Positions 4,262-34,688 of a DNA stretch of 64,000 nt are shown one piece after another; within the stretch, counting starts at the first letter, position 1, and every line of letters starts with the position of its first letter. A program made the position numbers and the translations under genes. The DNA comes from an uncultured Algibacter sp. (lineage in GTDB: Bacteria; Bacteroidota; Bacteroidia; Flavobacteriales; Flavobacteriaceae): positions 186,001 through 250,000 of the forward strand of contig NZ_CANLGU010000004.1 in NCBI RefSeq assembly GCF_947490405.1. The letters run 5' to 3'. The notes under the pieces are model-generated. The model had not been told where the DNA came from and ran no database searches. It was given only the letters and a program-made list of their open reading frames with translations.

Positions 4262-4375
4262 AGGGGGTTACCACGCCCAAAAGCGTGGTCAGGCTTTCCG
4301 TTACAAGTCCTCGCTCGTACCTCGCTGTGGGCTTTCCACTGCAATCCTTAACCCATTATCCGCTAATGCTAGTTA
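4262..4375 (-). repeat. Dispersed structured element, copy A
   Basis: Read on the minus strand, this copy shares a 38-base identical block (plus coordinates 4299-4336) with copy B at 26041-26078. It also carries a hairpin accacgc-ttttg-gcgtggt, where the other copies have hairpins of different sequence. The element starts with tagcggat and ends just before the start codon of the methyltransferase gene at 4252. The 344-base gap 4253-4596 also holds a short palindrome at 4428-4447; the rest shows nothing recognisable. Small ORFs called here (4209-4491) are the repeat read in other frames. Confidence 0.75.
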
Positions 4376-8215: not shown

Positions 8216-8393
8216 GACTTTAGCGGATTAACCCGCGTTAGGGATAGTAGTGGCATCCTTTTTAAAAGCGGGAAACTATAAATTTGTATTGGAACTGGAG
8301 TTTTACAGATTGCCACATCGCTAACTCCTGGCAATGATTTTTAAAAAGATATAACGGATAGCCCGACCCCTTGTGGGTAACGCCCAAATTATT
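8216..8393 (+). repeat. Dispersed structured element, copy C
   Basis: This is the longest copy (about 178 bases). It opens with tagcggattaacccgcgtta and shares a 30-base identical block (8360-8389) with copy B, including the accc-gggt hairpin and the cgcccaaat end. A long stem, cctttttaaaa pairing with tttttaaaaag, is specific to this copy. It lies between the convergent OsmC and DUF6048 genes. Confidence 0.75.
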
Positions 8394-26001: not shown

Positions 26002-26112
26002 TTTATGTTAGCAGATTTGCCCGCGTTAGGGATTGAAGAGGAAAGCCCACAGCGAGGTACGAGCGAGGACTTGTAACGTAAAGCCCGACCCCTTGTGGGT
26101 AACGCCCAAATA
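26002..26112 (+). repeat. Dispersed structured element, copy B
   Basis: This copy contains both long identity blocks: 26041-26078 matches copy A and 26082-26111 matches copy C. It opens with ttagcagatttgcccgcgtta and ends cgcccaaataat, about 100 bases upstream of the coiled-coil/zapA operon. The remainder of the 436-base gap 25774-26209 is AT-rich with nothing recognisable. The minus-strand ORF called at 26026-26271 is a shadow. Confidence 0.75.
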
Positions 26113-26209
26113 ATTGTGCATATAACTTGATATTGAAATTTTATGAAAAAACAATTGTAATTTATGGTTAGGTATGTTAACTTTGTGAGATAAGTATTGA
26201 ATTTTGTAA

Positions 26210-26830: not shown

Positions 26831-27024
26831 GTTACTGCCTACATTGGTTATTTTTTTTGATAAACTCAACGTTAATTCTTTAAAAAGGGTGAGTTTAAGT
26901 TGTAAAAGCATGCTGCTAGTGCTATTCATTTAGTATCTTGAGCAGACCCTTGATCAGCTTGTTAGCCCTAAACTTGTTTTTAAGGAGTTTATACAAAACT
27001 TTATACTGGTGTAGGCTTTTTTTA
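26831..27024 (+). ncRNA. ssrS: candidate 6S RNA
   Basis: The zapA-rny gap (26810-27093) holds a rod-shaped RNA candidate. The terminal stem pairs gcctacattggt (26837-26848) with actggtgtaggc (27005-27016), with G-U pairs. A second closing helix pairs ataaactc (26860-26867) with gagtttat (26985-26992). The 3' strand of the first stem is followed by a T-run. A long stem with a central open region and this position after zapA match 6S RNA, which binds RNA polymerase holoenzyme. I cannot run a covariance model, so the ends are approximate. Confidence 0.7.
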
Positions 27025-28708: not shown

Positions 28709-28740
28709 AAATCCAGTTAGTTTTCTAGCTGGATTTTTTA
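28709..28740 (+). terminator. Rho-independent terminator of rny
   Basis: Stem aatccagttag / ctagctggatt with a short loop, then a T-run; it ends the rny transcript. Confidence 0.8.
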
Positions 28741-28743
28741 ATT

Positions 28744-28820
28744 CCACTAACCACTAACCACTAACCACTAACCACTAACCACTAACCACTAACCACTAAC
28801 CACTAACCACTAACGACTAA
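28744..28820. repeat. Heptamer tandem repeat (CCACTAA)
   Basis: Ten perfect direct copies of ccactaa occupy 28744-28813, followed by one imperfect copy (cgactaa). The array ends three bases before the xerD stop codon and begins just after the rny terminator. It is non-coding. Copy number may vary between strains. Confidence 0.95.
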
Positions 28821-28823
28821 CTA

Positions 28824-29720
28824 TTATTTCCTTGGGTGATACTGCTCCATTACTTTAGTTAAATGACTCTTGTCCAGATGTACATATATTTCAGTTGTTG
28901 TAATACTCTCATGTCCGAGCATGAGTTGAATTGAGCGCAAATCAGCATTGTTTTCTAGTAGGTGTGTAGCGAATGAATGTCTAAAGGTGTGTGGGGATAT
29001 ATTTTTTTTTAATCCTATTTTTTCAGCGAGTTGTTTAACAATTGTAAAAATCATAGCGCGAGTTAGTTGCTTGCCGCGTCTATTTAAAAATAGGGTGTCT
29101 TCGTGTCCAGCTTGTATATTTAAATGCACTCTTATTTCATTTCTGTAAATGCTAATGTATTTCTGAGTAACATCAATAATAGGAACAAAACGTTGTTTGT
29201 TACCTTTTCCAGTAACCTTTATATAACCTTCATCAAAGAATAAATCTGATATTTTAAGGTTTATCAATTCACTCACTCGGAGTCCACAACCATATAGTGT
29301 TTCTAGCATTGCTCTATTACGCTCGCCTTCTGGCTTACTTAAATCTATAGCTTTAATTAAGGTATCTATTTCTTCTTCGGAAAGCGTGTCTGGAAGCTTT
29401 CTCCCTATTTTAGGTGATTCTATGAGTTCTAGGGGATTGTCCTTTCTATAGTCTTCAAATATGAGGTAATTAAAGAAGCTTCTTAAACCAGATATTAGTC
29501 TAGATTGAGACCTAGCGTTAACAATTTTAGCTGTTTCATAAATGAATTGTTGTATGGTTTCTGATGCTATATGAATTGGCGATTTACTAATATCATTTTG
29601 TTCAAGAAATACAATAAGCTTTTTTACATCAAGCGCATAATTATCAATAGAGTTATCTGATAAACCACGCTCAATTTTTAGGTATAATTTATAATCTTTT
29701 AATGCATTTTGCCATTTCAT
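28824..29720 (-). CDS. xerD: site-specific tyrosine recombinase XerD
   Basis: The 298-residue protein has an N-terminal SAM-like core-binding domain (about 1-90) and a C-terminal catalytic domain with all expected residues: R148 (LYGCGLRVSELI), K172 (GKGNKQRFV), H244 and R247 (HTFRHSFATHLL), H270 (LGHESITTTEIY) and nucleophile Y279. XerC/XerD-type enzymes resolve chromosome dimers at dif. The single-copy look and neighbouring aroQ and rny indicate the housekeeping enzyme rather than an element-borne integrase. No dif site was recognised in the window. Confidence 0.92.
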   Translation of the reverse strand: MKWQNALKDYKLYLKIERGLSDNSIDNYALDVKKLIVFLEQNDISKSPIHIASETIQQFIYETAKIVNARSQSRLISGLRSFFNYLIFEDYRKDNPLELIESPKIGRKLPDTLSEEEIDTLIKAIDLSKPEGERNRAMLETLYGCGLRVSELINLKISDLFFDEGYIKVTGKGNKQRFVPIIDVTQKYISIYRNEIRVHLNIQAGHEDTLFLNRRGKQLTRAMIFTIVKQLAEKIGLKKNISPHTFRHSFATHLLENNADLRSIQLMLGHESITTTEIYVHLDKSHLTKVMEQYHPRK

Positions 29721-33286: not shown

Positions 33287-34570
33287 ATGAACATACCTAG
33301 GACGAGTTTTCCCCGAATTGTAATAATTGGAGGTGGTTTTGCAGGCGTTGCTTTAGCAAAAAAATTATCAAAACAAGAAGTACAGGTTGTACTTTTGGAT
33401 AAGAATAACTACCATACTTTTCAACCCTTATTATATCAAGTGTCAACAGGTGGTTTAGAACCAGATTCTATTGCTTACCCAATCAGGAAAATTTTAAAAG
33501 ATTTCCCTAATTTTTATTTTAGGTTAGCAGATGTTGAGGAGATTGATGCAAACAAAAACAAGATAAAAACTAATATAGGTAATTTAAAGTTTGACTATTT
33601 GGTTGTGGCATCAGGCTCAACAACCAACTTTTTTGGAAACACAGAAGTAGAAAAATATAGTATGGCTATGAAAACCATACCACAATCTTTAAACCTTAGA
33701 AGTTTAATTCTTGAAAATTTTGAAGAGGCCTTATTAACTTCAGATTTAAACGAGCGTAATGCCTTAATGAATTTTGTGATTGTTGGAGGAGGTCCAACAG
33801 GAGTGGAGCTTGCAGGTGCATTGGCAGAAATTAAAAAAGGTATTCTTCCAAAGGACTATCCAGATTTAGATACGCGCTTAGCCCAAATTCATATTATTCA
33901 ATCCAGTGATTGTATTCTTAAGGGAATGAGTGAAAAAGCCTCTGCAAAGGCCGAAGACTTTCTAGAAAAATTAGGAGTTAACATCTGGAAAAATGTTAGG
34001 GTAACCAATTATGATGGTAAAACGGTAACTACTAATACTGATTTAACCTTTGAAACCGCCACCGTAGTATGGGCAGCTGGCGTAAAAGGAGCAACCATAA
34101 AGGGGTTAGATGCAGAAGATTTTGTAACTCGAGGCAATCGATTATTGGTTAACGAATTTAATCAAGTAAAAGGTTACGAGCATATTTTTGCAATAGGTGA
34201 TATTGCTTGTATGGCATCAGAAGCGTTTCCTTACGGCCACCCTATGATGGCGCAACCAGCCATACAACAGGGCGATCAATTAGGCGATAATATTCTGGAA
34301 CTTTTAGAAAGTAAACCTATGAAACCTTTTGCTTATAAAGATAAAGGAGCCATGGCAACCATAGGCAGAAATAAAGCTGTAGTAGACTTGGAAAAATGGA
34401 AGTTTCAAGGCATTTTTGCTTGGTACGTCTGGATGTTTGTGCATTTATTTTTCCTAATCGGTTTCAGAAACCGCATGGTGGTATTCGTTAACTGGGTGTA
34501 TAATTATATCCGTTTTGATAGAGAAGCACGCTTAATTATCCGTCCGTTTAAAAACAAATTAAAACATTAA
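33287..34570 (+). CDS. NAD(P)/FAD-dependent oxidoreductase, type II NADH dehydrogenase-like
   Basis: About 427 residues from ATG 33287 (MNIPRTSFPRIVIIGGGFAGVALAKKL). It shows an FAD motif (IVIIGGGFAG), a second nucleotide motif (FVIVGGGPTGVELAGALAE), FQPLLYQVSTGGLEPDSIAYPIR and a C-terminal FAIGDIACM segment. The amphipathic, hydrophobic tail (FQGIFAWYVWMFVHLFFLIGFRNRMVVFVNWVY) is typical of NDH-2 enzymes that attach to the inner membrane and pass electrons from NADH to quinone without proton pumping. Quinone and NADH roles are inferred from the family. Confidence 0.86.
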   Translation: MNIPRTSFPRIVIIGGGFAGVALAKKLSKQEVQVVLLDKNNYHTFQPLLYQVSTGGLEPDSIAYPIRKILKDFPNFYFRLADVEEIDANKNKIKTNIGNLKFDYLVVASGSTTNFFGNTEVEKYSMAMKTIPQSLNLRSLILENFEEALLTSDLNERNALMNFVIVGGGPTGVELAGALAEIKKGILPKDYPDLDTRLAQIHIIQSSDCILKGMSEKASAKAEDFLEKLGVNIWKNVRVTNYDGKTVTTNTDLTFETATVVWAAGVKGATIKGLDAEDFVTRGNRLLVNEFNQVKGYEHIFAIGDIACMASEAFPYGHPMMAQPAIQQGDQLGDNILELLESKPMKPFAYKDKGAMATIGRNKAVVDLEKWKFQGIFAWYVWMFVHLFFLIGFRNRMVVFVNWVYNYIRFDREARLIIRPFKNKLKH

Positions 34571-34688
34571 ATTATTTGGGCGAGTTGCCAAGAAAAATGG
34601 CAAACAGGCTTTCACTACTCAATCCCTCCTTCGTCGGGGATTTCAAACATGCCGTTCAATCCTTCTCGCGGGTATACTTGCTAGATTG
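34571..34688 (-). repeat. Dispersed structured element, copy D (diverged)
   Basis: Read on the minus strand, it opens near tctagcaagtatacccgcg, contains gggattgagtagtgaaagcc and ends actcgcccaaataattt, following the same order of blocks as copies A-C. Its hairpin (gtttgcca / tggcaac) has another sequence again, with pairing kept. It begins one base after the NDH-2 stop codon. The rest of 34571-34796 shows nothing recognisable. Confidence 0.6.

Follow-up and report, generated by a model that had tools for sequence, protein, structure and literature searches.

The four dispersed elements (copies A–D) in the analysed stretch of an Algibacter genome, a window of 64,000 nt, belong to the Rfam family Flavo-1 (RF01705), and this family folds into a three-way junction that is repeated throughout the genome and held at fixed sites, while whole arms are exchanged with their pairing preserved. 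Because the family was already known, having been described by Weinberg et al. in 2010 as probably an RNA (PMC2864571), copies A–D are in themselves ordinary; the full-length architecture, the arm exchange and a link to gene-cassette platforms appear to be new. Our best explanation, held tentatively, is that Flavo-1 is a structured, formerly mobile repeat that acts through its folded strand and, in one clade, came to form the right border of cassette slots.

Copies A–D and the full-length fold of Flavo-1

Flavo-1 had been named in the initial annotation as a possible match, and this guess is correct. In a comparison with Rfam 15, copy B scores above the gathering score, copies A and C fall below it, and copy D has no match at E ≤ 1; genome-wide, 44 of 67 matches lie above this score. 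All four copies sit at the positions and on the strands first proposed (Table 1), and the full-length model adds no further copy in the window. Lined up in register, the four regions show the shared block order, with the blocks as first listed, except that the closing outer stem, P1, had been overlooked. Similarly, the three distinct P3 hairpins and the varied contexts hold, with divergent genes flanking A and C and convergent genes flanking B and D. The 30-base identity between B and C is real (30 nt), whereas the one of about 38 bases ascribed to A and B was wrong: 39 nt are common to A and C, and A and B have only 9 nt in common.

Table 1. Flavo-1 copies in the window and their predicted structural parts.
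Feature	Position	Strand	Remarks
Copy A, whole, with 5′ block TAGCGGAT and 3′ block CCCCCTAAA	4256..4375	-	RF01705 33.9 bits; full model 84.1 bits
Copy A, P1 5′ arm GGGTT	4350..4354	-	Pairs with 4265-4269; compensated form of GCGTT/AACGC
Copy A, P1 3′ arm AACCC	4265..4269	-	
Copy A, arm P2 with two 3×3 purine internal loops	4291..4348	-	Predicted structure; 39 nt identical to C
Copy A, hairpin P3 ACCACGC/GCGTGGT	4270..4289	-	Replaced by other hairpins in relatives
Copy B	8216..8393	+	Rfam 50.8 bits (gathering score 42); full model 86.2 bits
Copy B, P1 GCGTT/AACGC	8235..8239 / 8379-8383	+	
Copy B, hairpin P3 ACCC/GGGT	8366..8378	+	
Copy C, upstream of zapA-6S RNA-rny region	26002..26116	+	Rfam 32.9 bits
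Copy C, P1 GCGTT/AACGC	26023..26027 / 26101-26105	+	
Copy C, hairpin P3 ACCC/GGGT	26088..26100	+	
Copy D, divergent arm subtype	34571..34688	-	Full model 54.1 bits (D in training set)
Copy D, P1 GCGAG/CTCGC	34665..34669 / 34580-34584	-	
Copy D, hairpin P3 TTGCCA/TGGCAA	34585..34603	-	

Sixty copies from the same genome were taken with 3 kb flanks, and 34 short-arm copies, including A, C and D, were aligned. With no structure supplied, RNAalifold folds these 34 copies into a three-way junction consisting of an outer stem P1 (typically GCGTT/AACGC), a long arm P2 broken by two 3×3 purine-rich internal loops, and a variable hairpin P3, so that the P2 stem and its conserved loops are recovered without the Rfam model. 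Changes on both sides occur in 16 of the 19 predicted pairs, and 96% of the cells in the hand-written structure are paired, compared with 80% in shuffles and at most 49% in slid controls. P1 takes the forms GCGTT/AACGC, GCGCT/AGCGC, GCGAG/CTCGC, GGGTT/AACCC and others, and is unbroken throughout the set. The covarying pairs of this alignment confirm the compensated stems that had been noticed from the sequence. None of 500 shuffles matched the observed covariation, which also exceeds all slid controls; together with the genome-wide copy number, this excludes a chance origin. That the copies are remnants of one transposon end lacking conserved structure, a possibility raised at the outset, is likewise excluded.

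Members of the family are dispersed, intergenic and about 105–170 nt long. Copy C is the genome's top match to the full model (104.8 bits), and the P2 tip of copy B is enlarged by a REP-like palindrome, GATTGCCACATCGC..GGCAATGA. Copies A–D resemble the published motif (PMC2864571) in P2 sequence and structure, in taxonomic range and in dispersed, non-cis-regulatory placement. The RF01705 model differs in having 76 positions and ending within the element: it covers the P2 arm only, lacks P1 and P3, and recovers about half of the copies. Its description includes neither arm exchange nor cassette platforms.

Three further features of the window were observed. A short distance downstream of copy C, zapA and rny are separated by a 6S-Flavo RNA (RF01685, 101 bits) at 26864-26990 on the plus strand; a tandem 7-base repeat, CCACTAA, occupies 28730-28840, with rny on one side and, on the other, a 298-aa gene apparently encoding a XerD-like recombinase; and a REP-like palindrome, TTGTCATTCCTGCGAAGGCAGGAATC, lies at 2678-2760, with like palindromes inside Flavo-1 arm tips.

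Copy number and distribution

The genome-wide covariance-model search that had been proposed finds at least 140 copies in the 3.69-Mb genome, compared with 67 by Rfam; the figure is a lower bound from 150 scored candidates. Rfam matches number 31–77 per genome in ten genomes of the genus. Across Bacteroidota the distribution is patchy, with a full-model match in 27 of 148 genomes; high copy numbers occur in parts of the Flavobacteriaceae and one more distant family, and single copies elsewhere. Restriction-modification genes adjoin some of these single copies (L132, L150 and L152, from our reading of the flanking genes), which suggests horizontal carriage.

Plasmids also carry elements similar to copy C, with 75–84% identity at the best places: 76 Bacteroidales plasmids have them, and 48 of these are predicted to be conjugative. 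Four plasmid copies examined score 68–77 bits with the full-length model R1, which was not trained on them, and conjugative Bacteroides plasmids are among the carriers. These plasmid elements (L342-L345; for instance NC_004703.1:31043-31128 on B. thetaiotaomicron p5482) often overlap the 3′ end of a recombinase family gene. A phage collection gave no match.

Retention and arm exchange at orthologous sites

Fifteen sites of the genome were placed in relatives through their neighbour genes, and the orthologous gaps were read. Flavo-1 is kept in 38 of 43 informative comparisons (88%, our own count), always in the same orientation. At many of these sites the arm is wholly different, with its pairing preserved. 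Copy A has an orthologous copy in four of four relatives; one carries the same arm and three carry other hairpins, while the P1 particular to this site (GGGTT/AACCC) is kept in all. Whole arm subtypes, the D-type arm included, alternate at six loci (L028, L040, L044, L056, L058 and L073). Since an orthologous Flavo-1 site can carry a D-type arm in place of the canonical one, copy D is independently supported as a member of the family. Arm tips often carry REP-like palindromes, and we infer that the arm differences arose by gene conversion or hairpin replacement. Sites without Flavo-1 (C in G007, L016 in G002 and B in G008) are rearranged rather than clean, and no clean pair of insertion and empty site was seen at the orthologous sites read.

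Gene context and the selected molecule

The expectation that Flavo-1 is not the regulator of one gene is borne out, as the elements occur in every arrangement of neighbour genes. The 51 non-platform copies comprise 11 between divergent, 12 between convergent and 28 between co-directional genes. Specificity for gene 3′ ends was rejected, the mix of divergent and convergent contexts being that of ordinary intergenic DNA. In 19 of the 31 instances in which the right-hand gene points towards the element, the stop codon of that gene is -1 to 8 nt from the element end. Copy D is one of these: its 3′ end abuts the stop codon of the gene at 33287-34570 (distance 1 nt).

An RNA role is a close rival to the repeat reading and a real, if lesser, possibility: Flavo-1 would be a transcribed structured domain (UTR element or small RNA) that binds a protein or stabilises mRNA, each copy being kept for its own transcript. 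The published assignment as probably RNA, the strict pairing of the three-way junction with its conserved loops of sheared-G.A-like character, and the retention of copies in constant orientation all fit such a role, as does the proximity to facing stop codons, from which the minus-strand reading begins at most 8 nt away. RNA-seq in F. psychrophilum instead finds Flavo-1 in either orientation to transcripts, with many copies untranscribed (PMC9723704), and the gene contexts are those of ordinary intergenic DNA.

The base pairs themselves also bear on this choice. Among 530 P1 cells from 106 elements, 527 are Watson-Crick, one is G-U and two are A-C, whereas 28 of 423 pairs in 20 tRNAs from the same material are G-U. 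This near-absence of G-U suggests that selection may act on DNA or on both strands. Wobble intermediates this rare are unusual for an RNA stem, although whole-arm replacement could be another explanation. Isolated mismatches in the P2 tip comprise 19 A-C and 7 G-T, and a fixed C.A on the annotated strand is U.G on the opposite strand, a point in favour of an RNA read from the minus strand. By folding energy neither strand is clearly the better folder, and Rfam's strand choice should not be taken as settled. The conserved purine loops favour a folded strand, and the avoidance of G-U, the random orientation and the carriage on plasmids favour a DNA-level repeat.

Cassette platforms beside Flavo-1

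About a fifth of the own-genome copies fetched are preceded by a conserved stretch, GTTAAACGAACCTCTCCAAAAA, a pattern found at 21 places in the genome and at none in a reversed control. At 16 of these 21 places, Flavo-1 follows the conserved GTTAAACGAACC site in the same orientation at a fixed offset of about 50 nt (15 by the full-length model and the sixteenth by sequence). Genus-wide, model R1 matches at 24 of 30 places fetched, nearly all at the fixed offset, and at promoter-plus-core loci from all genera 20 of 35 R1 copies lie 39–54 nt after the right core site.

Upstream of this site, the platforms consist of a promoter-like TTGACTTTGT..TANCTTCG followed by CGTTTAAC and a short hairpin; in empty platforms GTTAAACGAAC comes directly next, and filled ones have one to three genes at that point. 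The site at fmt is empty in G002 and G004 and holds differing genes in our genome (three), G009 (two) and G007 (two); cassettes are likewise exchanged at pyk, glnA and L073. Empty platforms carry GTTAAAC and GTTTAAC, which conform to the GTTRRRY and RYYYAAC core sites. Each cassette opens with bases reverse-complementary to the inverse core of its own attC, over at least 8 bp in 19 of 26 filled platforms (own count), as is known for integron cassettes, and shuffles reach such complementarity at a frequency of 0–0.08 each.

Scattered single-slot platforms with CGTTTAAC/GTTAAACG core sites occur in Algibacter, Lacinutrix, Hyunsoonleella, Wocania, Flaviramulus, Jejuia and relatives (L193-L206, L210-L229 and L230-L309; L196:13040-13215 is empty, L195 and L198 are filled), and in Algibacter Flavo-1 usually comes after them. 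Among the cargo at L205:1175-2617 (-) and L198:1120-2223 (-) are a protein matching PDC-S01, a candidate family of anti-phage defence, and one with a caspase domain. In Lacinutrix mariniflava, a tandem array (L274:1960-5330) provides every cassette with its own promoter, core sites and terminator-like palindrome, the last in the position that Flavo-1 takes in Algibacter.

Platforms and integrons (PMC8618304, PMC9024848) share the GTTRRRY/RYYYAAC core sites, the upstream promoter, the exchangeable cassettes and the inverse complementarity between cassette start and attC core. They differ in that an integron is one array beside intI, whereas the platforms are many scattered single slots with Flavo-1 as a fixed right edge. 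The one complete integron that IntegronFinder 2.0 reported for Bacteroidetes was that of Salinibacter (PMC9024848), and we found no published account of such platforms in the literature searched, which was that outside subscription journals. Two tandem attC-type cassette arrays (L207:205-3539 and L209:6201-12536) are headed by a tyrosine recombinase of 372–393 aa. These recombinases are NF040815-like (‘tyrosine recombinase/integron integrase’), scoring 205–211 bits against a cut-off of 220, where the best candidates in all reach 200–211 bits; structures of the XerA type are their best relatives, with IntI4 third, and they have no patch III region. A canonical integron integrase was rejected, all candidates falling under the cut-off, and none of the ten genomes has an IntI integrase above the TIGR02249 cut-off. 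Flavo-1 as an attC site was also rejected on sequence grounds, its GTTA/TAAC arms being oriented opposite to attC core sites.

There is good support for regarding the platforms as an integron-type system; what Flavo-1 does in them we can only infer. Copies A–D, like most Flavo-1 copies, lie away from platforms, and many Lacinutrix platforms have no Flavo-1; therefore, neither fully explains the other. A rather doubtful extension is that the Algibacter clade possesses a distributed integron: dozens of scattered one-slot platforms would each have a separate promoter and attachment site, Flavo-1 would have a working role in them as right border, terminator or a fold that delimits recombination, and arm swapping at fixed sites would reflect the same hairpin-recognising recombination. 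It is quite improbable that Flavo-1 is a boundary or terminator of transcription working in both directions, which would separate neighbour genes and end the transcripts of platform cassettes. Its position just after facing stop codons, its sense orientation downstream of promoter and cassette genes, and the palindrome resembling an intrinsic terminator that, from our sequence reading, occupies its Algibacter place in Lacinutrix units speak for a terminator, but its stems are followed by no U-tract, and 11 of the 51 non-platform copies are flanked by divergent genes, a setting with no transcript to terminate.

Discussion

Like REP/BIME palindromes and MITEs, Flavo-1 is short, palindromic, intergenic, high in copy number, present in both orientations and patchy. 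It differs from them in a far stronger pairing constraint, in conserved internal loops and in having no RAYT partner, and the terminal repeats or target duplications of MITEs were not among the features seen. Mobilisation as a REP element by a RAYT/Y1 transposase would fit its palindromic, intergenic, abundant and patchy character, but can practically be dismissed since Y1 genes are scarce and not consistently flanked by Flavo-1 copies; in the genus this mobiliser was rejected, with 0–5 Y1/RAYT genes per genome and none in two genomes that carry 31 and 70 copies.

In the structured-repeat explanation that we favour, Flavo-1 would be a MITE-like repeat that was spread in the past by some machinery, may have travelled between genomes on plasmids and beside restriction-modification genes, and is now probably mostly fixed. 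It would be recognised through its folded single strand, probably at the DNA level. In one clade, Algibacter and relatives, a copy would then have become the constant right edge of scattered integron-like platforms, laid out as promoter, inverted core sites, cassette genes, GTTAAAC site, 50 nt and Flavo-1, where it probably delimits the cassette transcription unit or the recombination zone. Against this explanation, no transposase travels with Flavo-1, and the conserved G.A loops resemble an RNA motif.

Flavo-1 is among the commonest computationally found small-RNA families and has been without an assigned function since 2010. The correct full-length fold yields twice as many copies in this genome and allows tests of expression and deletion to be framed properly. 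As far as is known, the platform link is the first repeatable genomic association for Flavo-1, and the platforms themselves point to an integron-type cassette system in Flavobacteriaceae.
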